Shown one piece after another: positions 2,691 to 64,000 of a stretch of 64,000 nucleotides of DNA (position 1 is its first letter; every line of letters begins with the position of its first letter). The position numbers were made by a program, and so were the translations under genes. The stretch comes from Antonospora locustae (lineage: Eukaryota; Microsporidia): the NCBI GenBank assembly GCA_007674295.1, contig CM017456.1, forward strand, positions 87,252 to 151,251, read 5' to 3'. The notes below the pieces were generated by a model that saw only the letters and a list, made by a program, of their open reading frames with translations, was not told the DNA's origin and did not search any database.

Positions 2691-3055
2691 CTGCACACAT
2701 GGCAACACGAAACTGAACACATACAGTGTATGCCAAGCTAATGATGAAGTAATTCTCTCGTACATAAAAATAAAGTTTTGATGTTCGCCTTGAGTTTGGA
2801 CTTTCAAGCATACTTTATTGAAAAGCAGGTAAGTAAAATATGTGTGTTTTGTGTCTCGTTGGCAGCCTCTATAAGTCACTTTTGCATGCACAAACCAATC
2901 CATGTACAGAATTTAGAACAGGCGTTATTACTTAGCTCACTTGTCATCGGAGCTTGTGTGGTGGCACAAAATGTCTTGGCAGGCCGCAAGACCTAACATT
3001 CTTTTCAGGTGTTAAACAATATCTCAGCACAAAGACATCACAAACCAACGCATCT
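2691..3055. other. Intergenic region containing one arm of an inverted repeat
   Basis: No gene is supported here. Bases 2934-3055 are the 3'-flanking part of a 195-bp segment that recurs, inverted and identical, near 17.2 kb. The rest is A+T-rich and contains AATAAA near 2769, possibly a poly(A) signal for the upstream reductase. Confidence 0.6.
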
Positions 3056-3128
3056 TTATTGAAGCGAAAAGAGCATGCTCGAGACAAACAGCAGCAGTCC
3101 ACTAAATGCCATCGCACTCACACCGTTT
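2934..3128 (-). repeat. 195-bp perfect inverted repeat, copy 1
   Basis: Read on the minus strand, this block is identical, base for base by eye, to plus-strand 17112-17306. It covers the last 24 codons of the small secreted protein gene, its stop codon and about 120 bp of 3' flank. Homology ends abruptly at both edges: coding sequence upstream and flank downstream are unrelated. This points to recent gene conversion or segmental duplication. Confidence 0.93.
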
Positions 3129-3301
3129 CTGGACTTTCTTGACCTCCTATTAGACGAATCATCTTTATTGTCATCATTTGATGAGGATTTATCATTGTCA
3201 TTTTTGTCAGGGTTTGAGCCGCTACCTGACTTTTCGTTGTCCTGGCAGCTAACTTTGACAAGAAGTGCAATCAGCAGTACTGCCCAAAACTCTCTCTTCA
3301 T
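3056..3301 (-). CDS. Small secreted or surface protein, mosaic family member 1
   Basis: This 81-residue protein has a clear signal peptide (hydrophobic AVLLIALLVKV, likely cut after the Ser-Cys region near residue 19). A short hydrophilic Ser/Asn/Asp/Lys-rich middle follows, ending in a basic patch. The C-terminal hydrophobic tail (SGLLLFVSSMLFSL) could be a GPI-attachment signal or membrane anchor. The start at 3301 is chosen because CCC lies four bases before that ATG and the same layout is seen in member 3. The N-terminal half matches member 3 (17458); the C-terminal half is identical to member 2 (16756). The function is unknown. Exposure on the spore or cell surface is inferred. Confidence 0.8.
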   Translation of the reverse strand: MKREFWAVLLIALLVKVSCQDNEKSGSGSNPDKNDNDKSSSNDDNKDDSSNRRSRKSRNGVSAMAFSGLLLFVSSMLFSLQ

Positions 3302-3684
3302 TGAGGGCATTCTGCACAACTATTTATACTTTTGAAAATCAAACTTCTGTTTTCGAATTTATTAATTTTTGTTCTATTTTCAAAAATAGAATCAATATGA
3401 AATGTTTGTTTGCCCAAAATAAAGCAATTTAAATTAAAGTAAGAATTAAATGTAGAACACAGATGACAATGTAAATTAAAATGATGCAAAACAATAAGTG
3501 TTGAAAGTGTCAGGTCAGGGTGATACTATGGTGCAGCCTTGCCTTGTGTTTCTAACATAGGTAAATGGTTTATACCACTAGACTCAACTTTCCAAGTATT
3601 TGCATTGCAATTGGTCTGTAATGTGTGCTAAAAAGTCTGTCATTCTTTTCACCAAATAAAATATGTGTCCTTACTCAAGATTAG
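3302..3684. other. Intergenic region with family promoter block
   Basis: The first 70 bp hold promoter elements shared with the other two family members: a TATAAATAG-like box at about 3316-3327 (minus strand) and an A+T block at about 3351-3369. The remainder up to the Utp21-like gene is A+T-rich with no supported gene. Confidence 0.55.
3316..3369 (-). promoter_or_regulatory. Shared promoter of the mosaic secreted family (copy 1)
   Basis: On the minus strand a block close to AAATTAATAAGTTC lies about 68 bp before the ATG, then TTTGATTTTCAAA, then TATAAATAG about 20 bp before the ATG. The same three blocks at the same spacing precede member 3. The first block also precedes member 2 at 64 bp. 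Confidence 0.6.
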
Positions 3685-5760
3685 CTAGACAAGTTCTCGA
3701 ACTCTCTTGTGAAACTCGACTATTCCAATGGTTTCAAGACACATTTCTTCCACCTCTTCCCACTTTTTGCTGTAGAAATCTATAAATTTCTCTATTTGTT
3801 TGTAATCCTTCTTGTCTATACCAACCTCTCCTAGCACTTTTTGTGCCCTAAAGAAGTCCTTGTCAAAAATCTCAATCAGGTAATTCTGGTCGTCGCACTT
3901 TCTGAACTCAATGTTCTGTGCAGGAAGAGAAGCAGGTTGTGCAAGGTAGTCATTGAGCATTGCATTGTTGTAGTAAGTGCATACGGTGCCATCATTGAAA
4001 AGCACAAATAAAAAGTCATGGTTCACAGAAAACAAAGCTGAACGTGGTGTCTTTTCAAACTGCACTCTATCCAGTACATTTCCCGATGCAATATCTATCA
4101 GTAGAAGCTCTGGAGTAAGAATTCCAACCATTCTCAGGTCTTTAGTAACAAAGTAGTCAATCGCCTGGTACTCGAACTTTCGCACTAGTTTCAACGAATT
4201 TACATCGACCATAACCACCTTTTTGTCTGTGTTTATGAACAACATGTTTCCGTACCTTTTCATCTTTTTACCGCCAGCTACATCTATCTCGCCAAGCATA
4301 TTACCTTCAAAGCTCAAAACCAAAACTTTCTCCAGCACTGCCACATATATCTTTTGTTGAATTATTGCAATGTCCAAAATGCACAGACCACTAACTGCTA
4401 TATTGGCCTCTTCTCTGGACTGTTTGTTGCAGTTCTGCATGTATGCACAGCGAATCATGCCTATTCTGGACACCACACGCCGCGATACTACGTTAAAGAC
4501 CTTCAATTCCTTCCTTCCATATGCACAAAACGGATGTTCAAATCCTAGATGCTCGAATTCAAAGTCGCTGCTAGTGTTTACAAGTCTTCCATTTTTTTTA
4601 TCAAAGTCAAGAAGAAAGATGTTCGAATATCCTGACACAACAACCTCTTCTTTGTCCACTCTTATCTTGTTTATGTTTCTCATGTCTTTGCATGAAAAGC
4701 GAAATGTTAGATCGTCCTTGTAAATGTTAATTCCTATTACACTGTTTTCCTCCATCAGAACCATGTGTTTTGTGCTTATAATGTCCATACACTCAATTTT
4801 ACTGTGCAGAACTCTCCTATGAACCAATATTGGTTTGTAGCCTTCCATGGAATAGAACTCGAGGTTCTGCCCCGCAGATATAAGATCTTTTTGTCCTGGC
4901 AGAAAGCACGCCCAGTGAATATCTTTTAGCTCTGCAACACACTTCAGCCTGGAAAGCTCGAAAATGTATGTGTTTTCGTTACAGCATATCATGTATGGTT
5001 CTGTGTCTGTTCTGAAGGATACGTGCCTCACTCCAGAGACCCTTATTATAAACATCTCCTTGTTCTGCCTTAGATTGAAAAACACAATATCGGTCTCGCG
5101 CAACAGGGCCACCACATCTATCAACGGTGTCTGCACTGCCTGTCTTACATTGCATATGTTAAATGTATAAATGACCTTTCGAGACACAACATTGTAGATC
5201 TGCATTTTGTTGTCATATACAATGAGAACCTTGTTGATGTAGGTTGCTGGATGCATTATACAGCGTATTCTATTTGCATCTTTTTCATTCCTCACATCAC
5301 CTTCTATCACATACAAGATGCTGAAATGGTCCATAACGATCACTGCATTCGTACTCATGGCTAGAACAACAAAAGGCCCTACAAACAGCATGCACTCTAT
5401 GACCAGTCCGGCATACTCGTTCTTATACACCTCGTTGCCCTGTATCAGAGACACTGTGTATCCAACGCCGTCATACACAATCTTATGTGCACTTTCTGTT
5501 TCTCCCCTGTTTACAACATATATTATATTATCGCTTGTCACATACAAGCGATTGTCGCGATGCAAAATCTGTTTTGTTTTTCTTCTGAAGCTGGGTCCTT
5601 CAAAAATGAGGTTAAATGTCTTTGCATTGTAAACTCTAACGGCACTTGAAACAGCTGCCATGTAGAAGACACCTCCCATTTCATAAACTACAAAGTTGTC
5701 TGGGTTTTCAAGAAGCGTGCGCGTGTAAGTGAACAATCCGTTCTTTGTGCTCTTGATCAT
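3685..5760 (-). CDS. UTP21: WD40-type SSU processome protein, Utp21/WDR36-like
   Basis: This 691-residue protein is built of repeated beta-strand blades. Its opening (a start motif, then YNAKTFNLIFEGP) resembles the beginning of Utp21/WDR36. The last 90 residues form a charged helical domain ending KRVRELV, in the place of the Utp21 C-terminal domain. In yeast Utp21 belongs to the UTP-B complex, which binds pre-rRNA during small-subunit assembly in the nucleolus. Few canonical Trp-Asp dipeptides remain, so the propeller is divergent, and the protein is about 250 residues shorter than yeast Utp21. CCC lies immediately upstream of the ATG (CCCATATG). Another double-propeller Utp protein is the main alternative. 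Confidence 0.6.
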   Translation of the reverse strand: MIKSTKNGLFTYTRTLLENPDNFVVYEMGGVFYMAAVSSAVRVYNAKTFNLIFEGPSFRRKTKQILHRDNRLYVTSDNIIYVVNRGETESAHKIVYDGVGYTVSLIQGNEVYKNEYAGLVIECMLFVGPFVVLAMSTNAVIVMDHFSILYVIEGDVRNEKDANRIRCIMHPATYINKVLIVYDNKMQIYNVVSRKVIYTFNICNVRQAVQTPLIDVVALLRETDIVFFNLRQNKEMFIIRVSGVRHVSFRTDTEPYMICCNENTYIFELSRLKCVAELKDIHWACFLPGQKDLISAGQNLEFYSMEGYKPILVHRRVLHSKIECMDIISTKHMVLMEENSVIGINIYKDDLTFRFSCKDMRNINKIRVDKEEVVVSGYSNIFLLDFDKKNGRLVNTSSDFEFEHLGFEHPFCAYGRKELKVFNVVSRRVVSRIGMIRCAYMQNCNKQSREEANIAVSGLCILDIAIIQQKIYVAVLEKVLVLSFEGNMLGEIDVAGGKKMKRYGNMLFINTDKKVVMVDVNSLKLVRKFEYQAIDYFVTKDLRMVGILTPELLLIDIASGNVLDRVQFEKTPRSALFSVNHDFLFVLFNDGTVCTYYNNAMLNDYLAQPASLPAQNIEFRKCDDQNYLIEIFDKDFFRAQKVLGEVGIDKKDYKQIEKFIDFYSKKWEEVEEMCLETIGIVEFHKRVRELV

Positions 5761-6076
5761 ATGGGTACTTATGTTTTAAGAGTAAGACTTTCTCTCAATA
5801 TATAGATGCATCTGCAGTTGGGTCTGCAGAATTTCAACCTAACTATTTTGAACAATTCGCCTTTTCTTTACCGATTACGTTGTTACAACAAAAAAAGGTA
5901 AAGTTTGTAGCATCACTACACATCGTCAAACGATATGTTCAAAATCACATAGCAGCTGCTGGTTTTACTGCAGACAACTTCTGGTGCAAAAGTGTACCTC
6001 TGGTGCATTTCAGTTATTGGGATACCCTATGTCCTCTCACTACTACTGTAATAAAAAGGACAAAAAGAAAGCCCCA
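5761..6076. other. Divergent intergenic region
   Basis: This is the shared 5' region of the Utp21-like and Arf-like genes. The plus frame is open from 5984, but no start before 6077 carries the CCC signal. No gene is supported. Confidence 0.5.
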
Positions 6077-6586
6077 ATGGGGTTCGTCTACTCGTTTTGC
6101 TACAAGGAAAAGAAGTACTTTCTTGTTATACTTGGAATAGACAAGAAGTTCAAAAAGAAGGTATTTGCAAGGCTTACTGGATCAGAACCTGCCCTTGAGA
6201 GTAAGTCGCGGTATGAGGAAAAAAAAGTGTATGTGGGTGGTCTTAGTACAATAGTGTGCTGCCTGGATGACGACAACATAACACACGAACTTTGGACTGT
6301 GCATGTGAACTGTGCGAATGCATGTGTATTTGTATGCAATCCAGACCTAGAAAGCCAAGAGCACATTGAAAAGACATTTGAATGGCAGTTTGGAAAGAAG
6401 TTAGACAAACAAGACTTCTGTGTTCTGATCATTGTCCATTCCAAATCAAGGTTCACGGGGCCTATTCTGAACAACTACAACAACCTAAAGAACGTCTGCA
6501 TGCTGCGCATAGATGAAGGTTGCACGAAGCAGGACGAGCAGATTGATCAGGGCGTTGAATGGCTGGTAAACAACATGCAAACTTAG
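6077..6586 (+). CDS. Degenerate Arf/Arl-family GTPase-like protein
   Basis: This 169-residue protein lines up with Arf along its whole length. It has a Gly at position 2 for myristoylation (MGFVYSF), a first strand YFLVILGID, an LW dipeptide where Arf has PLW, the strand CVFVCNPD where Arf has the LIFVVDSND strand, and an ending VEWLVNNM like Arf's LDWLSNQL. The nucleotide-binding motifs are eroded. The P-loop GxxxxGK[ST] reads GIDKKFKK, the WDVGGQ switch II is missing, and NKxD reads HSKS. It probably cannot bind GTP normally. CCCC directly precedes the ATG at 6077, which also supplies Gly2. It lies next to a GRASP gene, so a Golgi or vesicle role is plausible. Confidence 0.65.
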   Translation: MGFVYSFCYKEKKYFLVILGIDKKFKKKVFARLTGSEPALESKSRYEEKKVYVGGLSTIVCCLDDDNITHELWTVHVNCANACVFVCNPDLESQEHIEKTFEWQFGKKLDKQDFCVLIIVHSKSRFTGPILNNYNNLKNVCMLRIDEGCTKQDEQIDQGVEWLVNNMQT

Positions 6587-6808
6587 TAAAGATGTTTCTT
6601 ACCCTACAAAGCCATTGTCTCAGTATGTGTGACACGAGGATTAGAAAGTATTTGGTATTTTGCAAGGTGTTTCTATATTGCATTAGCTGACATTTGTGCA
6701 GTGAAGATGGAAAACTGCTGAGTGTGTTTGCTTGAGTCCAAGAAGTGAATCAGACTCAAGTTCTTAAAAGGCAGCAGGTGCGATACAAATAATTAATAAA
6801 AAACCCCC

Positions 6809-8143
6809 ATGGGAACCACACAATCATCTGTGAAAAGGTGTCTGGTTGTTCTGCGTGTGAATGACAACTCTAGATGCTTTCCGCACATCTCTCCATTCAT
6901 ACATGCGATTGTCAAGTACAATTCCATTCCAATTCAATCTGAGGACGATATCAAGAAAATGGCAACACAGCGTTATCTGGACCTGGAAATACTTGACCTC
7001 ATAAACGGAACAACGAAGAACCTCGCTGTGGAAACGCCTCTCGGCATCGGCGTTAAGTTCTGCGTACCACGGCTGCTTGAGCTAAAGGTTCTTGAGATAG
7101 AGAAGGGGTCTCCTGCGGAGAAAAGGATCACCGAAGGTGACTTTGTGGTAGGCATCGAAAACTTTTATTTTGAAACAAATGACGAGTTTTTCTACGCCAT
7201 TTACAGAAACAGAGGCGCTATGCTCAACTTTATAGTATATAGAGAGGGACAGGTAAGACGCGTTCCTATAAAGCTGAACACAAGTGAGCCCTTTTTGGGT
7301 GCAGTATTTGGTGAAGGAATACTCATGACAGCAGTGAGGTCTGGGAACGTGGTAAACATTGGCACACAGAGGGAGTACCAGCTTTGTGTTAGCGGAGCGG
7401 CATCTGAAGACACAAGCGATGTGCAGTACAACACAGAAAAAATGGCAAATGGAAAACTGCAAGGTGCAGAAGGCGAGGCACCTGACAGCAGTAATGTAAC
7501 TTGCAGTCAAGGAAGCAATAGCAAAGTGGAGTGCGCTGAAGAGCGGGTTCAAGAAATGAAAAACAATGGTAACACAAATACAGAGACATATGTACAGGTC
7601 AATAATATTCAAGAGACAAAGTCCACAAATGAAGGAAATGCTGAGTGTATCGCGGAAGGAGAACACCGGTTTTCAGGTGCAAACAAAGGTCAAGGTGCGA
7701 ACGAGACGCCATGTGACAGCGAACCATCCCAGAGAAGCACGTCCATGTGTAAAACTACTTGTCCTGAGCATGCAGAAGTTACATGCAGTGTTGTAATGCA
7801 CGAAAATTACTTTTCAAAGTCTAAATATAATGAGTCTATCAGTGTCCTTGGCACGCACCAGCTGAATATTTCCACAGAACATATTGAATCTCAAAAGGAT
7901 ATCTTTACTGACAGAAATGAAGTCATTAGTGATCATGTACATGCAACCAATGAAGTGTCTGATCTGGACACCAGTCAAGCTACGTCTGCAGACCATGTAT
8001 ACTCTCTTTGTAATTCAGAAACAACTCTAGAGGATGGTATGCGTACCTGTCCTATAATTGGTGAATACTCAAATGAGGATAAGATAAGGCTTCTCGAAAC
8101 ACTGACTGGATCCAAAAGTGAAAACACGTCTGAGCCAGAATGA
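6809..8143 (+). CDS. GRH1: Golgi reassembly stacking protein homologue (GRASP/Grh1)
   Basis: The first 180 residues of this 444-residue protein match the GRASP domain: MG with Gly2 for myristoylation, LRVNDNS, a first PDZ-like fold, then LGIGVKFC and a second PDZ starting LKVLEIEKGSPAEK, ending with FLGAVFGEGIL like the LGCGIGYG segment of GRASP55/65. The remaining 260 residues are Ser/Thr/Asn/Glu-rich and disordered, like the regulatory tail of GRASPs. In yeast Grh1 sits on early Golgi and ER exit sites and acts in unconventional secretion. Five C residues immediately precede the ATG. The upstream neighbour also begins MG and is Arf-like. Confidence 0.78.
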   Translation: MGTTQSSVKRCLVVLRVNDNSRCFPHISPFIHAIVKYNSIPIQSEDDIKKMATQRYLDLEILDLINGTTKNLAVETPLGIGVKFCVPRLLELKVLEIEKGSPAEKRITEGDFVVGIENFYFETNDEFFYAIYRNRGAMLNFIVYREGQVRRVPIKLNTSEPFLGAVFGEGILMTAVRSGNVVNIGTQREYQLCVSGAASEDTSDVQYNTEKMANGKLQGAEGEAPDSSNVTCSQGSNSKVECAEERVQEMKNNGNTNTETYVQVNNIQETKSTNEGNAECIAEGEHRFSGANKGQGANETPCDSEPSQRSTSMCKTTCPEHAEVTCSVVMHENYFSKSKYNESISVLGTHQLNISTEHIESQKDIFTDRNEVISDHVHATNEVSDLDTSQATSADHVYSLCNSETTLEDGMRTCPIIGEYSNEDKIRLLETLTGSKSENTSEPE

Positions 8144-8244
8144 AATTTGGACTACCTCTGCTGCAAACAATATATAAAAAATGTCGTCAACAAAGAGCAA
8201 GACATGGTTTTGCATGGCATCTAGCTCATCAGAAACAGCGCAGT

Positions 8245-8517
8245 TTACTGCTGTGCATTGAGACTCTCGCAAATTTTCTGAAATGCATTTGATATTCTGG
8301 ACTGTATGTAGGGAGACCCACCGTTGCTGGGGGAATTTCTATTATAATGCATTTCAAAAGCATTTCGAGCCAATACAAGGTCGTTTTCTTTTATGTTCAG
8401 AATACTCAACGATTCCTGCATTGTTATTGCTCTAGTGGCTGGGAAGAAATGGCACACAGTGTTCGTAAACGCTCTTGCTAAAACCTGAATGCTGTCTAGA
8501 ACTATTTCGCGCAGCAT
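8245..8517 (-). CDS. PAM16: Mitosomal import motor subunit Pam16/Tim16
   Basis: This 90-residue protein matches Pam16 (Magmas). It has an N-terminal hydrophobic helix (LDSIQVLARAFTNTV), then ITMQESLSILNI, then a J-like domain ending GGSPYIQSRISNAF. The J-like domain has no HPD tripeptide, as expected for Pam16. In other eukaryotes Pam16 pairs with Pam18 on the inner membrane and controls Hsp70 at the TIM23 channel. The frame is open to 8586, but CCC abuts the ATG at 8517, giving a protein of the usual start point. A Pam18 gene is found at 40.4 kb. Confidence 0.85.
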   Translation of the reverse strand: MLREIVLDSIQVLARAFTNTVCHFFPATRAITMQESLSILNIKENDLVLARNAFEMHYNRNSPSNGGSPYIQSRISNAFQKICESLNAQQ

Positions 8518-8959
8518 GGGCGGTGTCATTTTTTGTTTATCTTTGCAAAGCACGAGATGCCAGTAATTGTGATAGTATCTGAACAAACATAGACCAAGGC
8601 TTTCTTGTTGAGTCGTGCTGCCTCAACAACGATAGCGAACTGTCTTAATGTTATATAAAAAGAACTCTCTACTCTGCATGTCCAACAAGCCACGAAAAAC
8701 ATACCTCTTGTATTTGTTGTATGAAAATCTTCTAAACACTAAGTATCAACTATACAAAAACATAGCGATGTCTCCACATTAATGCATACAACAAAGCAAC
8801 GGCTCTTTGTGGTTTCTATCAAAGTCTTATTGCTATTTCCGTGCAGACATATGGTGCCAGGCAGCTTTTTTACTATCTTGCAGCTTAAAACACAAACGGA
8901 ACAGCTCTCAAACAAGAACGTTTTGGATTAAAATAAATAAGATAGACTACTTGAAAGAC
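8518..8959. other. Intergenic region
   Basis: This A+T-rich spacer lies between two divergent genes. The plus frame is open from 8807 into the next gene, but that extension lacks a CCC signal and breaks the signal peptide. Nothing else is seen. Confidence 0.5.
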
Positions 8960-9742
8960 ATGATGCAGCAAAAAATTATGGCAGGCTTATTAAAAGCAAT
9001 ATGGCTATGCAGTGTATACTTACAGCTAGCTGAAATGGCCGTAGGTGCTCACAATTACGACTATGGGAGCAGGCCAAATCCTGCGACTAGCAACTACTAC
9101 TACACACCCAGCTATTACACACAGCCCACTTTTTTAGGGAATATACAACCACAAGCCATGCCACTGCAAAAGCCCTTAGCGAACGAGAATCTTCCGCAAA
9201 AAACACTCGGACGCGCCCCTACTACCGTCCCCAAGATAAAAAGCACCACCATAAAAGTAAGTGAAAAGCGAGAATCGCCTCTAGACATATTAATTAAGGA
9301 CCATCCTGAAATTGGCAACAAGCTGAAGAAGATATTTGAGTATAATGGAATAATGCCCCCGTGGAACCCACTCAAGGACCTTTCAAGCCTTGAGCAGCAA
9401 CGTTTGCCTGATTCATGCATGCTTTATGTGAAGATGAAGGACATTCTAAAGGTGTTCGAAAGTCTCAAAGAGATGATAGCAGATGAGCTTTTGAAGGTGG
9501 AGACATATGTAAAGAGAGCAAAGGCATATCTCCGCGAGAAGCGGGAAAAACTCGAGCGCAACCTTGACAGAATGAAGCGATACATGAAAAAGATCAAGAA
9601 GTCGAAATCAGACTCTGTCAAAGCAGAGTATGCTCGAAAGTTTAGAGAAATTCAAGCTGACACAAGAAAAACAATGGAGGAGTATCAAAGTCTGAAGAAG
9701 TGGATGGTAAGTACGCTCAACAACTTCAAAACGTTGTTTTAG
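8960..9742 (+). CDS. Secreted Tyr-rich, coiled-coil protein
   Basis: This 260-residue protein starts with a probable signal peptide (AGLLKAIWLCSVYLQLAEMAVGA). A Tyr/Pro/Asn-rich stretch follows (YDYGSRPNP, SNYYYTPSYYTQP). The C-terminal half is a long, very basic coiled coil dense in Lys/Arg/Glu. Tyr-rich heads with Lys-rich tails occur in extracellular structural proteins, so a spore-wall or polar-tube role is possible, but no known family was recognised. I placed the start at the first of two adjacent ATGs (8960 and 8963); 8978 is also possible. Unusually for this window, no CCC lies near any of them, which may mean a different expression programme. Confidence 0.65.
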   Translation: MMQQKIMAGLLKAIWLCSVYLQLAEMAVGAHNYDYGSRPNPATSNYYYTPSYYTQPTFLGNIQPQAMPLQKPLANENLPQKTLGRAPTTVPKIKSTTIKVSEKRESPLDILIKDHPEIGNKLKKIFEYNGIMPPWNPLKDLSSLEQQRLPDSCMLYVKMKDILKVFESLKEMIADELLKVETYVKRAKAYLREKREKLERNLDRMKRYMKKIKKSKSDSVKAEYARKFREIQADTRKTMEEYQSLKKWMVSTLNNFKTLF

Positions 9743-10121
9743 ACGCAAATGCCTACTAACGAGTCTTGTAAAAGCGAGTACAAAGCATTTTATATATTAT
9801 ACACACCACCACGACAAAAATACACAGTTTTCCTGTAATTCAATGTTGACCTGAAAAATCTGCAGAGAAAGGATCTAATCATAAAACAGACATAGCAGTT
9901 GTGAAAATCGTGCCTGTTATGAGTATTTGACGAAACATCACTCTTCTCAGACAATATAGAGCCAAAAGAATCACAAAATACTAGACGTTCAGCTAAAAAC
10001 GTAAGCAAGTTATTACTTAAGGTGTTACCTCACATTTAGAGAAGGACCTTGTGTTGAAGAAGTCTTCTAAATAAAGCCTAAGTCGTGACTGTTTACACAG
10101 TAAACTAAGGTGTGTTTTTCT
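9743..10121. other. Convergent intergenic region
   Basis: This is the shared 3' flank of the Tyr-rich secreted gene and the DEAH helicase. It is A+T-rich with several short open frames in unrelated phases and no supported gene. Confidence 0.5.
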
Positions 10122-12500
10122 CTACATAAACTCACGTGCATCGATAGAGAAATCCTTGCTGTCCAGTGCCATACACCATCTCATGTATCCTTTTTTTGTC
10201 ATGATTAGGTCGTTGAACAGCACATATTCAGGTGCCCTACCATGTAAAACACTTGAAGGATGTATGTAGCATATCTTTCCCTCTGTAATTGTCATGTATG
10301 CATCTCCTCTCTTCCTTGCTACATTATGCTTGAAACCTTCTAAGAACGCCTGAAATACACCATCATGATTGCTCTGCAAGTCTTCATGCTCGTTGTGCCT
10401 CTGGATGTTTTCGTCATTCGAAAAACCGATGCAACTTCTCTTGTAAAAATCGCCATTCTCTGTGCCAGCGTCAATGAGAAACTCTGCACGTCTTCTGGAC
10501 TTCGCATTTGCGCAGCCTCCATTTGGCAAAAAATGCTCAATCAGCTGGCCTATTACCTTTTTGACGTGCTCCATATTCTTGATGTTCATTCCGTTTGCTT
10601 CAAGGAACTTGTGCGAGTATTGCTCATTTTTCCACCTTCTATAAATGTTCAGAAGCGTGTAATGGTCTCCCCGTGCATCTTCGTACTTTCTCATAACATT
10701 TATACCCATATCGGATTGAAACCCACTGAGATCTCCTTTTATAATGTTTGGCACAGACAACATGGAAATAATAGCTGCAGTATCTACGAGAACACCAAGC
10801 CGGCTTGCAACTAACAAGGTCTTGGCACACTGAACGTGTACTGGTAGCGTGCTCATTTTTTTTCCTTCCACTGTTAAAGCATTGTTTTTAAGTGCACCAA
10901 TGCTTTCCAGAAAACTCTGGGCTTCTTCAAGTCGATCTTCAGGCAGTGAGGTAACTAAGTTTGTATAGCGCACTCCTAGAGAAGTAAGAAGAAGCACAAC
11001 ATTACACAGATTAACTCTCAGCATTTCTGGATCAATGCATTCTTGAAATGCTTCAAACTCCTTTTTGGTGTAAATCCTATACACAGTTCCCTCTCTGACT
11101 CTGCCAACTCTTCCGGCTCTCTGTCTTGCCTGTGACCTCGATATTTTTGCCACAAAAAGCGTGTCTATCTGCATAAATGTCTTCTGCTTGAAATACCCGC
11201 TATCTATGACGTAGTCTACATCCAAGGTGATTGATGTTTCTGCTATGTTGGTCGCTAAGATGATCTTGGGCTTCGCTGAGGGTAAAAACACACGTGGTGA
11301 CTGCAAAGAGCTGTGAAGCGGTATGATCGTGTGAGACGAGGACAAAGACCTCTTCAGAGATCTGTATGCATAGCTTATTTCCTCCTGACCCGGCAAAAAC
11401 ACAAGAATGTCTCCTGTTTTGCATGATGTATATGCACAGACGCCGCTGTCTCTCGTGACATTTGCACTGCTGTTGCCAGCATCTACATCCTTGCTGCTTT
11501 CAACAGCAGTGTTTCCACTATGCATTCTATTTGCTACAATTTCTCTGTACTCTGCACCAGCACACAGCATTTCTGTTGTTTCGATGGTCTCCTTCAAATA
11601 GTCGTCTGCCTCACACCTGAGATAATACACTTCTACAGGAAACCTCTCCACTTCAATGCTTATCAGAGGACATTTGAAGAAATCGACAATGTCTTCGCTG
11701 AGTGTTGCACTCATTACGACCATTCTTCTCCTCATTGCTAGCAGCACATCAATATTAACTGTACGCTCGTGTGCTTCATCCACGACCAGCACGTCACTTC
11801 TGATCTTGTTTCGCAGCAAAATTCCATCAGTGACATAAATAAGCCGTGTCTTGTCACTAATATCCTCCTCAAATCGGACTTTGTACCCCGCCTTCTCTCC
11901 TAGTGTCCTTTTTACGTACTTTGCAATTGAAATTGCTGCTAGGCGCCTGGGCTGCGTGCATACGACTGTACGGAACTTCTCCAGCAAAAACTGCGGTATA
12001 AGCGTGGACTTTCCGCATCCTGTGTCACCTCGTATGCATATCACATCATGTGACTCCATGAGAGATAGAACAAGCTCCTTTATTTTGGTGATTGTTTCTC
12101 CTCTTGTGAGTTTAAAGGTGTATTCCTCTCGCTTTTGATCACGCCCTCTGTGAAAGTTTGCCTGCGCATATTTTGAACTAGACGTAAGTTTTACATTGTG
12201 CGTCTCTTTGGTATGTACCTGGACTTTCTTGTGAATGTCGGTGTCTATTGCACATATTCGCCTGTCGTGCTCTGAGTTCTCTTTGGACTCTGTGCAATGG
12301 CCATCAGATTTGACTTGCATGCACTTCTTATCTGCATAGCTTTCAACCGCAATACACAATTTCAAGTACATATCCTCACCTAAATAGCTCTTGAGCCTTT
12401 CAAGTTTATTGTCAATGTGCAGAGCCATTACATATTCTCTAAACATCTTTTCGGAAAGATTTAAAGCTTTTGAGAGCTCGGCTATTTTGTCTGCTGTCAT
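10122..12500 (-). CDS. DEAH-box RNA helicase (Prp2/16/22/43 group)
   Basis: This 792-residue protein has all the motifs of DEAH/RHA RNA helicases: GDTGCGKST (about residue 158), TQPRRLAA, DEAH (about 238), SAT (about 265), TNIAETSIT and QRAGRVGR (about 460). The winged-helix, ratchet and OB-fold C-terminal domains follow, ending with HPSSVLHGR and an FNDLIMTKKGYMR strand. Members of this group drive spliceosome remodelling or ribosome release. The short N-terminal region (SKALNLSEKMFREYV) recalls the helical start of Prp22/DHX8, but no S1 domain is present, so I do not assign one member. The ATG at 12500 has CCC two bases upstream and is preferred over one at 12563. Confidence 0.85.
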   Translation of the reverse strand: MTADKIAELSKALNLSEKMFREYVMALHIDNKLERLKSYLGEDMYLKLCIAVESYADKKCMQVKSDGHCTESKENSEHDRRICAIDTDIHKKVQVHTKETHNVKLTSSSKYAQANFHRGRDQKREEYTFKLTRGETITKIKELVLSLMESHDVICIRGDTGCGKSTLIPQFLLEKFRTVVCTQPRRLAAISIAKYVKRTLGEKAGYKVRFEEDISDKTRLIYVTDGILLRNKIRSDVLVVDEAHERTVNIDVLLAMRRRMVVMSATLSEDIVDFFKCPLISIEVERFPVEVYYLRCEADDYLKETIETTEMLCAGAEYREIVANRMHSGNTAVESSKDVDAGNSSANVTRDSGVCAYTSCKTGDILVFLPGQEEISYAYRSLKRSLSSSHTIIPLHSSLQSPRVFLPSAKPKIILATNIAETSITLDVDYVIDSGYFKQKTFMQIDTLFVAKISRSQARQRAGRVGRVREGTVYRIYTKKEFEAFQECIDPEMLRVNLCNVVLLLTSLGVRYTNLVTSLPEDRLEEAQSFLESIGALKNNALTVEGKKMSTLPVHVQCAKTLLVASRLGVLVDTAAIISMLSVPNIIKGDLSGFQSDMGINVMRKYEDARGDHYTLLNIYRRWKNEQYSHKFLEANGMNIKNMEHVKKVIGQLIEHFLPNGGCANAKSRRRAEFLIDAGTENGDFYKRSCIGFSNDENIQRHNEHEDLQSNHDGVFQAFLEGFKHNVARKRGDAYMTITEGKICYIHPSSVLHGRAPEYVLFNDLIMTKKGYMRWCMALDSKDFSIDAREFM

Positions 12501-12622
12501 GAGGGCACTGCCTGTAGTACAAAGAATCTCGGCTATCAGTCCTTTGCAGAAATACCAGGACATTGAGCATCTATGCTAACGTGATATTATAACGTGTGCA
12601 GCACATACTGAAATGTATACTT

Positions 12623-13792
12623 TTATTTTTCTGGTTGTACTATGTCTGTAAAACATAGCTTCTTAGGCACCTCCCAAGGAAACATCTCTCTTCCAAAATG
12701 TCCGTAGGATGCTGTTTTTCTAAATATGGGGTTTTTGAGACCTAGCTTGCGCGCAATCATGCTAGGCCTCATGTCAAAATTCTGATTGATGATTTCAACT
12801 ATTCTGTCGCTACTGATGACACTTGTGTTATATGTATCTACGTATATAGACAGTGGCCTTGAAATGCCAATTGCATACGATATTTGAATCAAAACACGCC
12901 TGCATATTCCAGAACTTACCAGAGATTTTGCTATCCACCTTGCCATGTACGCACCGCTTCTATCAACTTTTGACCAGTCCTTACCACTAAAGCATCCACC
13001 GCCATGGCATCCAAAACCACCGTAAGAATCAACTATTATTTTTCTTCCTGTCAAGCCTGCGTCTGCAGCAGGCCCCCCGTGCACAAAACTGCCGCTTGGC
13101 TGTATATAGTATATGGTGTCCCTCAATAGCGACTGTGGAACGACAGCCTTGACTACGTTTTCCATAACAAAAGATCGGAGTTCCTCTGTACCAACCTTAT
13201 CAGAGTGCTGAGTAGATATTACAATTGTGTGTACCCTCAGAGGTACTAGCCTTCCACTATCTTCGAGATATTCTATGGTCACCTGCGACTTGCAGTCTGG
13301 CCATATGAAGTCATTGGTTTTCCTTAATTCGGAAAGTCTTCTCACTAGATTGTGTGCAAGAACCAAACTCATGGGCATTTTCTCGATAGTTTCGTCAGTT
13401 GCATATCCAAACATCATTCCCTGGTCTCCGGCGCCAGTCTCCCCATAACCATTGTTCTCTATAGCACTTGCTATTTCATTGCTTTGCTCTTTTAAGCAAA
13501 CAGACACATTTACTGTCTTGTAGTCAAATCCCTTTCTGCAGCAATCATACCCAATATCCTTCAAGACGCATCTCACCAATTTTTGATAGTCGACAGTTGC
13601 TCTAGAAGATATCTCTCCGCACAAAAGCACCATTCCTGTGCTTACAACTGTTTCTACAGCAACACGGGCATTAGGATCCTGTCTAAGATGTTCGTCCAGA
13701 ATTGCATCACTGATCTGGTCACATATTTTGTCTGGATGTCCTTCTCCTACGCTTTCTGACGTGAACAAAAAAGTACGAGCACCGCAGTTCAT
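12623..13792 (-). CDS. SAM2: S-adenosylmethionine synthetase
   Basis: This 389-residue protein makes S-adenosylmethionine from ATP and methionine. It has the expected length. Family motifs are [18 protein letters not shown] near the start, [16 protein letters not shown] near residue 117, and the loop [22 protein letters not shown] near 265, which carries the metal- and phosphate-binding residues. It should be fully active. CCC lies two bases before the ATG at 13792. The stop codon is embedded in an AAATAAAAG string that could double as a poly(A) signal. Confidence 0.95.
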
Positions 13793-13989
13793 CAAGGGTG
13801 CATAATTTAGACGGAAATGAGCTCACAGAAGCTTATATACACCAAACACCGAGCTTCTACTAGAATAAGCCAAACGTGACAGAGCCGAAAAACTGCCTCA
13901 TTTTTCTTGCTGTAAAGCTCAATGACTGTGCTTATGTCTCTTATTAACTAGCATTACGTGTGTGAATTCTGCTTGCTAACTTGTGACAC

Positions 13990-14523
13990 CTAGCTTTCAT
14001 AATATATGTCCAGCTTATATATAAACCCCCTGTCAAATGTTTTTCGCACAATTGGTGGGTCTGTGTTCATAAGGGCATTGAGAATATCAACACATCTATA
14101 CTTCGATACACCTGACTTCCTGAGAATGTCTTCGTAGAGAATGCCGCTTTTATTTGCAAATAGGAATCTTACTAGCTTATCTGCATTTGAACGATATAGA
14201 GCATTGTCAGGTATCACTTTGTGGACTTTTTCCAAAACATCCTGTATTTGCATGCTTTTACTTGTCATCACCTCTTTTTCCAGTAGCTGCTCGTGCACAT
14301 GGTGTATCTTTGATACTGAAAATTGCGTATTGGCCACGCCAGTTGAGTCAACGTTTTCATCATTTTGAAGAGCTTTATCTGACATCTCATCCATCGATAG
14401 CAGCAGTGCCTCAAGCTTAAAGTTGAAAATGTTTATCTGCTCGTTAAGCACAAGCACTCTCTCAATCTTCGTCTTTATATCCCTAATTGCAAGGTGAAGT
14501 CTCTCAATTTTCTCCTCATACAT
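13990..14523 (-). CDS. Small coiled-coil/winged-helix protein, function unknown
   Basis: This 177-residue protein has an N-terminal coiled coil (about residues 1-45) and a polar linker. The C-terminal 70-residue domain has the hydrophobic pattern of a winged helix (DKLVRFLFANKSGILYEDILRKSG, then DILNALMNTDPPIVRKTF). Such a layout is seen in kinetochore, septin-associated and RNA polymerase accessory subunits, but I could not place it. CCC touches the ATG at 14523; an in-frame ATG at 14580 lacks the motif. It is divergent from the Dph3 gene with about 150 bp between starts. Confidence 0.6.
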   Translation of the reverse strand: MYEEKIERLHLAIRDIKTKIERVLVLNEQINIFNFKLEALLLSMDEMSDKALQNDENVDSTGVANTQFSVSKIHHVHEQLLEKEVMTSKSMQIQDVLEKVHKVIPDNALYRSNADKLVRFLFANKSGILYEDILRKSGVSKYRCVDILNALMNTDPPIVRKTFDRGFIYKLDIYYES

Positions 14524-14671
14524 GGGCAGGGATTCTATTCCAGCAAATAATGCAGTTTTGAAGCTCTCAGAAAGACTCATTTTCCATGAACCTGCCGTTA
14601 TGTCTTTCTATGCCCTATAAAGCCTCTTGCTGCTTGCTTCGGAGTAAACAACAAGCATGCACCCCTAGTCT

Positions 14672-14983
14672 ATGGACAGAAGAAGCGACATTGAGCTAAA
14701 ACTCCTTGAGGAACGAATATATCGCGATGAAAGGTACAACATCATAAAGTATTACGACGAGGTGGATATAAAGGACTTTGAGTACGACGCAGCAAATCGT
14801 GTATTTACTTTTCCGTGCCCTTGCGGTGACCAATTCGAAATATCTCTTGAAGAGCTACTAAATGGAGAAGAAATAGCAATGTGTCCCAGCTGTCCTTTGA
14901 TTGTGAAGGTTGTTTATGAGGACGAAGACATAAACAGAGTCAAGGAAGTCATAGAATCGAGCGCAAGGTCGTTATATTCATAA
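14672..14983 (+). CDS. DPH3: Diphthamide biosynthesis protein Dph3/Kti11
   Basis: This 103-residue protein contains the CSL zinc-finger domain: [13 protein letters not shown], then [16 protein letters not shown] and [14 protein letters not shown]. The four Cys (CPC...CPSC) bind one metal ion. In yeast Dph3 is an electron donor for diphthamide formation on elongation factor 2 and also supports Elongator-dependent tRNA modification. It carries about 28 extra charged residues before the usual start, which is odd because other family members begin close to the YYDEV motif. CCCC lies six bases upstream of the ATG. Confidence 0.92.
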
Positions 14984-15173
14984 CAAACTTTTGTGTTTGT
15001 ATCTAATTGCAGCTGCCGACAACGCCTCAGGCTCTGCAAATGCAAAGACAATGCGGGGCATTTGGCCCCTTTTGTGGTTGAGCTTTGTGGTAAATTTACT
15101 TTATTCTGTGTGTGTCAGCGATTGCAAAAGTAGTATAAAAAAATCAGAGAGCAGGGTTACGCAACGCTATATC

Positions 15174-15974
15174 ATGGAGAAAGAACAGTATTTCTACCTG
15201 TCACTTCACTACGATAGTCTGAAAGACACTGAGAAGTCGCTTGAGTATTACATAAAGGGCTTTGAGACGATGATGAGCAGCCACGAAGCCATCACAAAGC
15301 AGGTTTGTCTGAACTTGGAAATTCTTCTGATGAAAAGAGTTAAAAGGCTGCAGGAAACTTTGGAAAATCTAGGAAAGATGAGGTCAAACGCACTTAATCC
15401 CACCGAAATACGCTTTCTAGAGGATCACGAGGAAGGTATTCAGAGTGATATTCTCTTGACGTTCAATCGCGCCATATCCATATTTCAGATAATCAAAGAC
15501 AGTGTTGGTGTATCCGACCACAAGCTTCTGGCATACGTAATGAAGACAAAGGCAGACTTTCTTAGAAGAAAGGCCATCTTCTACGAGGACTCCGGGGACA
15601 CACATACAAAGGCTGAGGCAACTGCTCTTTATGAATATGCTCTGGTGCTCTTGATAAGCACGCCAGTACAATGCCCATACAAACTAGATGTCATGCTGAA
15701 CTATGCAAAACATGCACTTGAATGTTATGGCGACGAATCCAAAATAAAAAGCCTACGAGAAATATTCTACGGGGCTCGCAGATTTTTCATGCATGATCAA
15801 GGTGAGGATACAAGATACTACCTCTACATGCTGAAGTACATAGGACTTTACCTAGATAACAAGCAAAACATTCGCAACTTGACATTCGATAGATGGATAC
15901 TTGAAGAAGACGATCCAAACGCAGCCAACATCATTGTACATGAAGACTTGTACACTCTGTATGTTAATACGTAG
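15174..15974 (+). CDS. Divergent 14-3-3-like protein, possibly with signal peptide
   Basis: From 15174 the 266 residues follow the all-helical 14-3-3 layout. The start (MEKEQYFYLSLHYDSLKD) resembles the usual 14-3-3 beginning. Later pieces, MKTKADFLRRKA and ATALYEYALVLL then a KLDVMLNYAKHALE helix, match the YLKMKGDYYRY and LGLALNFSVFYYE helices. Several phosphopeptide-binding residues look changed. The frame is open upstream to 14991 and includes an ATG at 15051 followed by WPLLWLSFVVNLLYSVCVS, a good signal-peptide pattern, which would give a 307-residue secreted form. No CCC precedes either ATG; a GGG lies 18 bases before 15174. Which start is used is undecided. Confidence 0.6.
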   Translation: MEKEQYFYLSLHYDSLKDTEKSLEYYIKGFETMMSSHEAITKQVCLNLEILLMKRVKRLQETLENLGKMRSNALNPTEIRFLEDHEEGIQSDILLTFNRAISIFQIIKDSVGVSDHKLLAYVMKTKADFLRRKAIFYEDSGDTHTKAEATALYEYALVLLISTPVQCPYKLDVMLNYAKHALECYGDESKIKSLREIFYGARRFFMHDQGEDTRYYLYMLKYIGLYLDNKQNIRNLTFDRWILEEDDPNAANIIVHEDLYTLYVNT

Positions 15975-16755
15975 AAGTAGCTTCTATATCCATATCTGCT
16001 TTTGCATCTTGCTGCCATAGTCAATTTAGAATGTTTTGTCTTGTTAAACCCCGTATTTTGCATTGCCCTCCTTTTGCTGAGACATTGCAATCCTGGCTGC
16101 AGATAGCAACATGCATTCCACTTTTGAATGCTTTCTGAGAATTCTTGTATTTCGTAATACTTTCTCTATGCATTGCTTGTCTTTGACGAGAAAATTTATT
16201 ACACTGTGGTGATTACTTATACTTCTTTCATTTCACAGAACTATACTTCTATGTTCATCACAACATTCACAAGCAGGTCAAATGTTTGACATAGCTATCG
16301 TATGCACATGTGCAAAATTCCTTTTATGCAAGTGCTCTTGCATACAGCAATTCAATGTCATCTGTACTGTGTATTTACTTTTTATTATGTGCTATCCTTG
16401 GTATTCCATATTTTCACGATCTCTGCATCTTTCATGTATATCTCTTTTTCCCACCTTTTTCAGATTGCATTTCGTCGTCTCATGTATTTACATTGTAATT
16501 CTAGAATGCCAACATGGTATGTGCACATCAGCTCCGTCCTACAATTTTCTATTTTTTTCAGGTCATATTGACAATGACAACAAGTAGTTACATGTGTTGG
16601 CATGGAGGTTGTAGTGTGTATTTGTTTAGGATTTAGAAATCACATTGTCATTGACCCAGCATAGTATATGCTTTTGTTTTGCAAATGGAGTAAAATTAAT
16701 AAGTTCAAGAAGGGAAGCTGTGTTCGAAGACAAACAAGCTACATGCAACGCCCTT
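15975..16755. other. 780-bp intergenic region
   Basis: This T-rich stretch contains short hydrophobic open frames (the longest about 100 codons from 16282), none with the start motif or recognisable similarity. The last 65 bp hold the shared family promoter block at about 16692-16708. I see no RNA gene. Confidence 0.5.
16692..16708 (+). promoter_or_regulatory. Shared promoter block of the mosaic secreted family (copy 2)
   Basis: AAAATTAATAAGTTCAA lies 64 bp before the ATG of member 2. The same string lies 67 bp before member 3, and a close variant lies 68 bp before member 1. Sequence between the block and the ATG differs from the other two members. Confidence 0.55.
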
Positions 16756-17184
16756 ATGAAAAAAAGGATTTGTATAGTTATTTTGTTATTTTCACATATC
16801 AGTTGCCAGGGAAATGAAAACGTAGGCAATGGTTTAAGCACTAACAAAGGCATCAGCAATAATGGCAGCTTTCCATTAACAAATAACAACGTATCCGCGA
16901 ATAACAACGCATACTTGAGTAATAACACATCTTCTGGCGAACAGTCCAACGCAGGCAGTGTTCCTTCTTCCGGCGAACAGTCCAACGCAGGCAGTAGTCC
17001 ATCTTCTGGCGAACAATCTACTGGAGACGACCAAACCTCATCAAACAATAGTACAGGTGATAGCAGCAATCCAGAAAATGGCAGCGAAGAGCCACCCTCA
17101 GAAACACCCGAAAACGGTGTGAGTGCGATGGCATTTAGTGGACTGCTGCTGTTTGTCTCGAGCATGCTCTTTTCGCTTCAATAA
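16756..17184 (+). CDS. Small secreted or surface protein, mosaic family member 2
   Basis: This 142-residue protein has a signal peptide (CIVILLFSHISC) and a long Asn/Ser/Gly-rich middle. Near residues 60-90 it holds three tandem copies of a unit close to SSGEQSNAGS. The tail, from NGVSAMAFSG to the end, is identical to member 1. Asn-X-Ser/Thr sites suggest possible glycosylation, although microsporidia have reduced N-glycosylation. The tail may be a GPI signal or anchor. The start at 16756 is set by CCC two bases upstream. The stop codon overlaps AATAAA. The function is unknown. Confidence 0.8.
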   Translation: MKKRICIVILLFSHISCQGNENVGNGLSTNKGISNNGSFPLTNNNVSANNNAYLSNNTSSGEQSNAGSVPSSGEQSNAGSSPSSGEQSTGDDQTSSNNSTGDSSNPENGSEEPPSETPENGVSAMAFSGLLLFVSSMLFSLQ

Positions 17185-17306
17185 AGATGCGTTGGTTTGT
17201 GATGTCTTTGTGCTGAGATATTGTTTAACACCTGAAAAGAATGTTAGGTCTTGCGGCCTGCCAAGACATTTTGTGCCACCACACAAGCTCCGATGACAAG
17301 TGAGCT
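17112..17306 (+). repeat. 195-bp perfect inverted repeat, copy 2
   Basis: This segment is identical to the reverse complement of 2934-3128. It includes the last 24 codons and stop of family member 2 and 122 bp of downstream sequence. Because even the non-coding flank has no mismatch, the event was recent or the copies are kept alike by conversion. Confidence 0.93.
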
Positions 17307-17390
17307 TGTGAGAAGTATTCTCGATACAATGTCTAACAGAATGAATCATGGTTACCATGAGCCATGTGCTTCCGTTTTTATAAAAGAGCA

Positions 17391-17440
17391 AAATTAATAA
17401 GTTCAAAAAGAAAGGTTTGATTTTCAAAGGTATAAATAGT
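17391..17440 (+). promoter_or_regulatory. Shared promoter of the mosaic secreted family (copy 3)
   Basis: AAATTAATAAGTTCAA begins at 17391. TTTGATTTTCAAAGG and TATAAATAG (about 17431) follow. Order and spacing to the ATG at 17458 match those upstream of member 1 on the other strand. Confidence 0.6.
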
Positions 17441-17457
17441 TGCGCATAATGCCCTCA

Positions 17458-17736
17458 ATGAAGAGGGGGTTTTGGGTAATGCTGATTGCACTTCTTGTCA
17501 AAGTTGGCTGCCAGTACAACGAAAAGTTAAGTAGTGATGGTTCAAACCCTGACAAAGGATGTGAAAGAGGTCAATTCTCTAATACAAACAGCAGGCTGCT
17601 CATAGATAGAATACCACTCAACAAAGGGGATGTTGCAGTTGATAGCAAGAACAAAAAACTACATAGTAAGCGAAAAAACGAAGAAGATTTTACAAAATCA
17701 TTTTTGTTTATATCAACCATGTTCTATTCACTTTAG
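17458..17736 (+). CDS. Small secreted protein, mosaic family member 3
   Basis: This 92-residue protein opens with almost the same signal peptide as member 1 (MKRGFWVMLIALLVKV versus MKREFWAVLLIALLVKV) and shares the next NEK...GSNPDK stretch. Its remaining two thirds are unrelated: basic and polar, ending in a short hydrophobic SFLFISTMFYSL. The tail resembles that of members 1 and 2 only in character, so it may be a decayed version. CCC lies four bases before the ATG. It follows member 2 in the same orientation after 273 bp. Confidence 0.7.
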   Translation: MKRGFWVMLIALLVKVGCQYNEKLSSDGSNPDKGCERGQFSNTNSRLLIDRIPLNKGDVAVDSKNKKLHSKRKNEEDFTKSFLFISTMFYSL

Positions 17737-55630: not shown

Positions 55631-56438
55631 ATCTTGACACAGGGGCTCCTTATATTTTTGTTTATGAAAGTATTGGTCAATAAACTTATCTTATGTTTCA
55701 GGAGTTGCTGCTGTTTCACAGAACAATGCCCCTGCACTGTGTTGCTTAGTTGCAACAAAGCAGGCAAAACAGGGCAAGATTGAGGCATGTAAAGAGACCG
55801 CCAGGAGCACTGCTTATTTTGCTAATACCATGTCTCTTTGAATTCTTCACCGACAGTATATTGCCAGCATGTGCCCTTTCTTGTCTATGCAACTTGTTTT
55901 CCCAAAAACAGGAGCATGTTTCCATATCCGCATTATTTTTCTGCCATGAATTTCTGTTTATCTGCACAGGTGATTTCAACGTGCCGTGCTTCTGCATTAA
56001 TGTGAACACTGCAATGCGATGGCGAAAAGTGGCTGATTGAGACAACTACCAATTTAAAGCGATAACAGCAAATGTTTGCGAGACCAAGCTTTTTTCTCCG
56101 CAGCAGGTTTCATAACTAAAGCCTGTCAGTACACTGTTGATTACTTTCCTCAAAAGAGACATGCACGCTAAAAGGTAAAGAGAAAATCCATAATACTATG
56201 AACTAAAAATACGTACACAGAGCTTTTGTATCATATGCAGTCTGTGAATACTAAGTTTTGGAAATGAGTGTAGTGCTGATAGTACAATGTTCAGGATACT
56301 TGGGCGCCTGTATGCCAGCATGGCGTGCCGTGAGTGGCTGCTAGCCTGAAGACGAACGGCAAAAGTGCCAATCTGATCCGCTGCACACGCATGGAAAAGG
56401 CGGTAGACACAATGTGAAGAGTCGTTTATTGGTACATG
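55631..56438. other. 808-bp intergenic region
   Basis: No gene is supported. A hydrophobic plus frame (55750-56040) lacks a start signal. Local base composition begins to shift to higher G+C near its right end. I looked for tRNA and snRNA signatures and saw none. Confidence 0.5.
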
Positions 56439-56780
56439 TCACTGGCCGTCCTTCTTGCCAGAGTTGCTGACCTTGTCATATGCCTGGCCTGCAACATCTT
56501 TCGTCTTGTGGTATGCGCTTGCTGCACCGCTCTTCGTCTTCTCGCCGGCCTTCTGTGCCATCTCCTTGCCCCGCTCGTATCCGTGCTTCATGTTGTCGCT
56601 GTTTGCCTTGTTCTTCATATCCTCTCCGGTGCTCTTTGCACGCTCTCCGGCACTGCCAGCACCATGCTTTGCACTTTCGCCATACTCTCTTGTCTTCGCA
56701 CCCATGTCTTTGCCTCCATGGCCGCCAGAGCAGGACGCGTCGCCGTTTCCCTTGCACTTGCACTTCTCGTTCTCGCACAT
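56439..56780 (-). CDS. LEA-like hydrophilic protein with Cys-rich head
   Basis: This 113-residue protein starts with a metallothionein-like patch: MCENEKCKCKGNGDASCSGG, with four Cys. The rest is entirely hydrophilic, rich in Gly, Ala, Lys and Glu, with repeated 11-residue-like units (ERAKSTGEDMKNKA, KAGEKTKSGAASAYHKTKD, AGQAYDKVSN) as in group 3 late-embryogenesis-abundant proteins. Such proteins protect dried cells, which would suit an environmental spore. No signal peptide and no CCC before the ATG. All of this is composition-based; no exact family was recognised. Confidence 0.6.
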   Translation of the reverse strand: MCENEKCKCKGNGDASCSGGHGGKDMGAKTREYGESAKHGAGSAGERAKSTGEDMKNKANSDNMKHGYERGKEMAQKAGEKTKSGAASAYHKTKDVAGQAYDKVSNSGKKDGQ

Positions 56781-57308
56781 TCAGAAGCAGGTGCAGTCCT
56801 TTTTATGTTTTCTTGATGCGTTATGATTTGTCGAAAAGCTGAAAATCCATCTACGCGAGAGCCCATTTGTTGCATTGGAGATGCACGCGTGTGCGGGCAA
56901 CCAATGGACTCGTCGGGCAGGGGTCTCTCCGCTCTGCACATCGAAGCCCAGTGTGCATCAACAGCAGCTTTACTTGGTGTAGAGGCACAAAAGACACAAG
57001 GCAGTGACCGAAAGACAGAAGCCCTCTTTTTATGTTTCTGGCTTTGGCTCTGCACCAGGTCTCGCCACAGCGTCTCAGTGCAGCGAGAAAGGCTCTGCGT
57101 CCATCACAAATGCTTTCAGATTCAGGAGGAACCTCGCAAAACTACGGCAAGACGAGAACTGGACCAATACCGCACGTAAGGCCAGCTCGCCAGATTCCAG
57201 CAGCGTGCAGTCTCTATCGTCACAAAGGCTGAAGTACACAGAGGTTGTGTGTTCGCCCAGAAGGGAAAGACGTCTGTGACACAACTGGCAATGGTCTTGC
57301 AAATCCCC
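56781..57308. other. Intergenic region
   Basis: This 528-bp stretch has several overlapping open frames on both strands, none with the start motif or recognisable similarity. I see no gene. Confidence 0.4.
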
Positions 57309-57668
57309 ATGAGATATTCGTTGCTTTTGCATGCTGTGTGTGGTGTGCTGTGTGCAGACGCCAGTGCTGCAGAAAGCGCGAAAAGGCGAGACAGCGACTC
57401 TGTGCAGAGCAGCAGCACGTCATTTGTGAGGTGCCACCGGCGCATGGACAGCATCGGGCGTCGCGAGGACTTTGGAATTATCGGCATGGCATGTGCGCAG
57501 GAAAAACAGATGGGGCTGGTGCTGCAGCATGGACAGCATCGGGCGTCGCGAGGACTTTGGAATTATCGGCATGGCACGTGCGCAGGAAAAACAGATGGGG
57601 CTGGCGCTGCAGAAAAGCAAGACGACCGTATAAGCACCCATGCACATGCAGCAGTGCTACACAATTGA
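57309..57668 (+). CDS. Small secreted protein with frame altered by an 85-bp duplication
   Basis: CCCC touches the ATG at 57309 and a signal peptide follows (YSLLLHAVCGVLCADASA). The 119-residue frame then passes through two tandem 85-bp units. Because 85 is not a multiple of three, the second unit is read in another phase, and the C-terminal 45 residues are out of the original frame. With a single unit the protein would stop soon after. It is a possible recent length variant, or an assembly artefact. The function is unknown. Confidence 0.5.
   Translation: MRYSLLLHAVCGVLCADASAAESAKRRDSDSVQSSSTSFVRCHRRMDSIGRREDFGIIGMACAQEKQMGLVLQHGQHRASRGLWNYRHGTCAGKTDGAGAAEKQDDRISTHAHAAVLHN
57442..57611 (+). 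repeat. Two tandem 85-bp direct repeats
   Basis: Units at 57442-57526 and 57527-57611 differ by only two bases that I can see (GGCATGTGCG/GGCACGTGCG and GGTGCTGC/GGCGCTGC). They lie inside a small secreted-protein frame. Confidence 0.85.
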
Positions 57669-57683
57669 AGCTGCACACAGTGC

Positions 57684-63990: not shown

Positions 63991-64000
63991 AAGACAGGAT

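Follow-up and report, generated by a model that had tools for sequence, protein, structure and literature searches.

Three short open reading frames (ORFs), here called m1, m2 and m3, lie in a 64,000-nucleotide stretch of the genome of the microsporidian Antonospora locustae (GenBank assembly GCA_007674295.1, contig CM017456.1, positions 87,252 to 151,251; hereafter the window). They probably represent an old family of short secreted paralogs in which the 3' ends of m1 and m2 were recently made identical by ectopic gene conversion. The original prediction for this DNA had described a mosaic of swappable 5' and 3' modules around a variable centre, as expected of a surface-antigen or spore-coat diversification system. 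That tempting antigen-shuffling picture is replaced here by a simpler history, and in a compact microsporidian genome the locus is a clean candidate case of ectopic conversion between paralogs in inverted orientation.

The three family members

The m1 ORF (3056-3301 with its stop codon), on the minus strand, which the original prediction had not mentioned, encodes an 81-amino acid (aa) secreted-type protein with a head like that of m3 and the tail of m2. On the plus strand, m2 (16756-17184) encodes a secreted-type protein of 142 aa with central tandem repeats, and is followed by m3 (17458-17736), which encodes one of 92 aa with a degenerate tail. All three ORFs were confirmed, and by eye their N-termini resemble signal peptides, as had been predicted; the description of a small family of secreted proteins whose ends are fairly constant and whose centre is of low complexity was also right. 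The centres of m1, m2 and m3 are unlike each other in length and composition. That of m2 does hold three tandem units, in the form of a 36-base pair (bp), 12-aa in-frame repeat (16930-17037, plus strand) with copies at 100, 89 and 61% identity, for which Tandem Repeats Finder counted 2.4 copies.

Identity at the 3' ends

The last 23 residues of m1 are the same as the last 23 of m2, and the identity extends past the coding regions as a perfect inverted repeat of 195 bp. The left arm (2934-3128) contains the m1 tail and stop codon with 122 bp downstream, and the right arm (17112-17306) contains the corresponding part of m2. The arms are identical at 195 of 195 positions, 73 bp of which are coding (stop included) and 122 bp downstream, and they are separated by 13,983 bp (3129-17111). 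Beyond either end no similarity is visible, outer flanks included. The tract thus has the features of a gene conversion tract, with sharp ends and identity that includes silent and noncoding sites, while the upstream block of the same two genes is only 32/41 identical. When the window was compared with itself by blastn (E-value 1e-3), the only other matches were the 5' block shared by m1 and m3, the tandem arrays described below (57442-57612 and 59551-60304), and a pair at 73% identity (63111-63223 and 63274-63388).

The prediction that m1 carries the tail of m2 therefore held at every one of the 195 positions. What it missed is that m3 also retains a degenerate form of the tail. The m3 C-terminus, SFLFISTMFYSL, reached a score of 32 when compared with the tail of m1. 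When the C-termini of the window's 405 open frames with 60 or more codons were ranked in this way, m3 came third, behind m1 and m2 (54 each) and ahead of the next frame (18); of 20,000 shuffles of the final 12 residues of m3, 16 did as well. The conserved segment of small residues seen in the other tails is missing from m3, whose product may be soluble or decaying.

Homology at the 5' ends

The 5' block of m1 (3203-3385, minus strand), which covers upstream sequence and signal-peptide codons, is 85% identical to that of m3 (17375-17556, plus strand) over 186 alignment columns by blastn. In the aligned head codons of this pair 23 were the same, three differed silently and six changed the residue, numbers too few for judging selection. 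An upstream motif, AAAATTAATAARTTC, precedes m1 (3355-3369, minus strand), m2 (16692-16706, plus strand) and m3 (17390-17404, plus strand). Exact matches to it occurred three times genome-wide, one ahead of each member; allowing up to one mismatch gave 11 matches versus 8 for the reversed control. The upstream block of m2 was identical to that of m3 at 37/47 positions, and neither this value nor that for m1 and m2 was equalled in 1000 dinucleotide shuffles. These alignments establish homology of the 5' flanks in all three pairs. The promoter and signal peptide that m1 was predicted to have in common with m3 are thus borne out, but not as a feature of those two genes only, since m2 has the upstream block as well.

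The signal peptide of m2 could be aligned at the protein level only (E-value 5e-6 to m1 and 0.001 to m3), and the m1 and m3 proteins matched over their full length (E-value 7.5e-19); these comparisons were of low-complexity sequence with the composition correction off. With 5' flanks, heads and tails taken together, m1, m2 and m3 are best read as paralogs along their whole length, with fast-changing centres.

Homologous proteins and start sites

A search of 5.8 billion proteins with a three-member alignment as query, and a second search that scored only those 7,991 candidates with the most words in common, each returned three proteins: m3 itself, P0002 (89 aa, on a contig of 7,952 bp) and P0003 (76 aa, on one of 1,283 bp). 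The longest contig recorded for the m3 sequence is 4,485 bp, so it seems to come from another assembly. Over its length P0002 shares 80% identity with m1, and the heads of these two proteins agree at 27/33 positions, as compared with 26/33 for m1 and m3. Its tail matches that of m1 at 23/24 positions and that of P0003 does so at 20/24; P0003 is built alike, its stalk being of the Gly/Ser type. To give a scale, the Utp21-like protein encoded next to m1 (3688-5760) was 79% identical to its best match other than itself. The layout of m1 is therefore present in a second lineage, as judged from the P0002 protein, and m1 probably represents the canonical form.

No further homologs were found among the 5.8 billion proteins, by a search that does not reach distant microsporidia, so this is no proof of absence. 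The limited reach follows from a control in which the Utp21-like query returned only four proteins (A. locustae, labelled jgi/Antlo1, at 100%, two lgn records at 79 and 46%, and a Menopon gallinae record at 67%). The last of these, P0006, is recorded under a louse on a 1.9-Mb contig and marked UNVERIFIED_CONTAM, and is probably a microsporidian protein in that assembly. In agreement with the species of the window, the uL14 protein of its genome is identical at 140/140 residues to chain LV0 of PDB 6zu5, the ribosome of Paranosema (Antonospora) locustae (PMC7644102).

If translated from the first ATG, m1 (from 3310) would be 84 aa and m3 (from 17449) would be 95 aa. The second Met of both coincides with the starting position of m2, P0002 and P0003, and a CCC triplet lies upstream of that ATG at -6 in m1, -5 in m2 and -6 in m3. 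Because these starts align and have CCC upstream, the original start positions, used here, are likelier than the first ATGs. By manual count, CCC or GGG occurs within 25 bases upstream in 17 of 29 other listed ORFs.

Proposed history of the family

We infer gene conversion as the process, and the following order of events. The plan of the family would be a signal peptide, a low-complexity hydrophilic stalk and a hydrophobic C-terminal tail of the glycosylphosphatidylinositol (GPI) type. The canonical layout would be that of m1, while in m2 both the 5' half and the centre would have diverged, with tandem repeats acquired in the stalk, and m3 would have kept its 5' end while the tail degenerated. 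Afterwards, recent ectopic conversion, in either direction, between inverted copies 14 kb apart would have homogenised the final 73 coding bases of m1 and m2 together with 122 bases downstream. At the divergence seen upstream of m1 and m3 (14/91), 122 noncoding bases would show no difference with a probability of about 1e-9; taking the upper 95% bound on identity raises this to 6e-6.

Several points weigh against this history. The probability calculation compares different gene pairs and assumes equal neutral rates. The first 60 coding bases of m2 have no significant DNA likeness to the other members, with 199 of 1000 shuffles as good for m1 and 508 of 1000 for m3. P0002 and P0003 were compared as proteins only, which neither places nor directs the conversion, and the arms are known from one assembly. 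For the proposed GPI-type tail, no Gaa1 gene was found in the genome, by a search that was also silent in 14 of 14 controls.

Alternative explanations

An unlikely alternative, although it survives best, is that a duplicative insertion or a template switch recently copied the 3' block from one gene onto the other, in place of a conversion of existing homologous sequence. The end of the likeness at both arm ends, with outer flanks that have no visible homology, agrees with such a copy. However, the tail protein is conserved in P0002 and P0003, so m1 and m2 probably had homologous tails earlier, and conversion could then have occurred without insertion.

It is improbable that the 195-bp identity was preserved by purifying selection acting on the tail and on a functional 3' region, or that it is an assembly artefact. 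Strong protein conservation of the tail, as in P0002, would suit selection, as would the AATAAA that overlaps the stop codon in both m1 and m2. However, neither the synonymous sites nor the 122 downstream bases show any difference, and on either side the flanks of the two arms are unlike. The overlap with the stop is not special, since it occurs at the same offset in one of 29 other listed ORFs (12623-13792). No unusual RNA fold was found at the 3' block (z = -0.58; 51 of 200 shuffles as good), and with this ordinary score a structured 3' RNA element was rejected.

We give still less credence to an extension of the conversion history, in which the tail and 3' flank would act as a functional cassette. 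Repeated conversion between the inverted copies would hold this cassette constant, with the stalks free to diverge. In a very compact genome, this would be a minimal, two-copy concerted evolution of the end that attaches a surface protein to the membrane, with a silent 14-kb inversion as a by-product.

An antigen or coat diversification system that combines 5' and 3' cassettes round a variable centre is very improbable. In its favour, head likeness (m1 with m3) and tail identity (m1 with m2) group the genes differently, and the centres vary in length and composition, with tandem repeats in m2. However, the combination seen in m1 is already present in P0002, and m2 and m3 hold their respective 'missing' ends in diverged form. 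Swapped modules are thus neither supported nor needed, given the layout of P0002, the upstream block of m2 and the decayed tail of m3. Exchange between copies, as had been predicted, probably did occur between m1 and m2.

Copy number also stands against a diversification system. The genome searched comprised 3,170,203 bases in 17 contigs (3.17 Mb), and the counts are lower bounds for repeats according to the search tool's own warning. The m1 protein query matched at least three places, and DNA queries spanning m1 and m2-m3 gave no genomic loci beyond m1, m2 and m3. The P0003 query matched two places and the P0002 query gave four rows at E-values up to 10, all within the three genes. Neither many copies nor silent donors were found, only these three loci genome-wide, and the genome searches revealed no donor or pseudogene array. 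The original prediction had itself named a finding of only these three copies with no variation between isolates, or no transcription, as evidence that would count against it, and on copy number, half of that condition, this is what was found. The exchange, moreover, increased the likeness of m1 and m2 and did not diversify them.

The arms might also act as a switch that inverts the 14 kb between them (3129-17111) by recombination, since a perfect 195-bp inverted repeat could mediate inversion over the 13,983 bp between its arms. This was rejected as a switch, with next to no probability left to it, because the segment contains both promoters together with both 5' ends, and the two tails do not differ; a flip would therefore change no family member's sequence or promoter. 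The perfect arms do permit a simple polymerase chain reaction test of the inversion between isolates. Finally, an origin of m1 from a single unequal crossover of tandem m2 and m3 (m3 head and m2 tail) was rejected because head and tail would then share one age. At 85% identity for the head and 100% for the tail, the 5' and 3' parts differ in age by these alignments, and m1 is not the product of one event.

Predicted products and comparison with known families

Read by eye, the N-termini begin with M-K-K/R, followed by a hydrophobic core and then S/G-C-Q. The stalk is hydrophilic, rich in S, N, D and K or in S, N and G, and leads to a hydrophobic end with nothing after it. A GPI-type C-terminus, with small residues, a spacer and a hydrophobic end, fits m1, m2, P0002 and P0003 by the same inspection, and the plan suggests attachment by a GPI anchor. 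The likely products are small secreted proteins, two of them with putative GPI-type tails, and we infer a cell-surface or spore-coat role. The genome contains a Peptidase_C13 (GPI8-type) gene (65.9 bits, cut-off 22.8) and a PIG-A gene (87.2 bits, cut-off 27). Among other microsporidia, according to PMC4435813, Edhazardia aedis has complete GPI synthesis, whereas in Vavraia culicis it is heavily reduced.

Pfam gave five matches below cut-off for m1, and none for m2 or m3 at E-values up to 0.1. ETRAMP (PF09716) was rejected for m1 because its 18.7 bits fell below the cut-off of 29.1. Behind S/G-C-Q there are no further cysteines in m1 or m2 and there is one in m3, so the proteins are not cysteine-rich.

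Judged by eye, the family resembles spore wall proteins of GPI type such as AlocSWP2 of A. locustae, for which PMC5697631 describes a signal peptide, a serine- or glycine-rich body and a predicted GPI-type end. By eye, NRRSRK in m1 also fits the heparin-binding form XBBXBX quoted in that paper. Unlike AlocSWP2, given there as 222 aa, m1, m2 and m3 are 81-142 aa and not cysteine-rich; they are known here from sequence alone, and the likeness implies no sequence relationship. Lineage-restricted paralogs with secretion signals also make up the species-specific secreted families of microsporidia, as described in PMC4435813, and the leucine-rich repeat (LRR) multigene families of A. locustae, in PMC3976299. 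Unlike those families, the present one is unexpanded at three members found and has no Pfam domain above cut-off.

The TcTASV family of Trypanosoma cruzi is similar in that the N- and C-termini are conserved and the core is variable, and a GPI-anchored surface product has been shown for TcTASV-C, both according to PMC3726618. That paper gives about 40 members for TcTASV, unlike the three here, and the likeness is one of architecture only, without homology. As in gene conversion in microsporidia and other parasites, the exchange would be between repeated copies in one genome, but here the case is drawn from a single pair of short, inverted genes in one assembly. Among the literature matches listed, no microsporidian family described so far had this layout. 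As far as that literature goes, the family is new, lineage-restricted and of a known kind, and it enters the A. locustae catalogue as a small group of secreted proteins for which there are two divergent homologs.

Other features of the window

Between the arms, a 307-aa ORF (15051-15974, plus strand) with a hydrophobic N-terminus had a weak match to 14-3-3 proteins (Pfam 24.1 bits, cut-off 33.2; PDB 3efz, E-value 0.009). Its structural model was of low confidence (mean predicted local distance difference test score, pLDDT, 52) and had 14-3-3 as its best fold match, with a template modelling (TM) score of ~0.25. Most of the 50 listed fold matches name 14-3-3, and none reaches an E-value of 0.001. 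The model is consistent with what is possibly an exported 14-3-3-like protein. A 94-aa ORF (8248-8529, minus strand) matched Pam16 above cut-off (37.9 bits). Pam16 is expected in a reduced mitochondrial organelle.

The G+C content is 54-55% at 56001-64000, as compared with 39-49% elsewhere in the window, and this stretch includes a DNA photolyase ORF (57687-59270, minus strand). Two tandem copies of an 85-bp unit (97%) are present at 57442-57612. At 59551-60304 a 66-bp unit is repeated in tandem 11.4 times (97%); this array overlaps the 3' end of an alpha/beta-hydrolase ORF (60103-61152, minus strand), and several reading frames are open through its 22-aa repeat.

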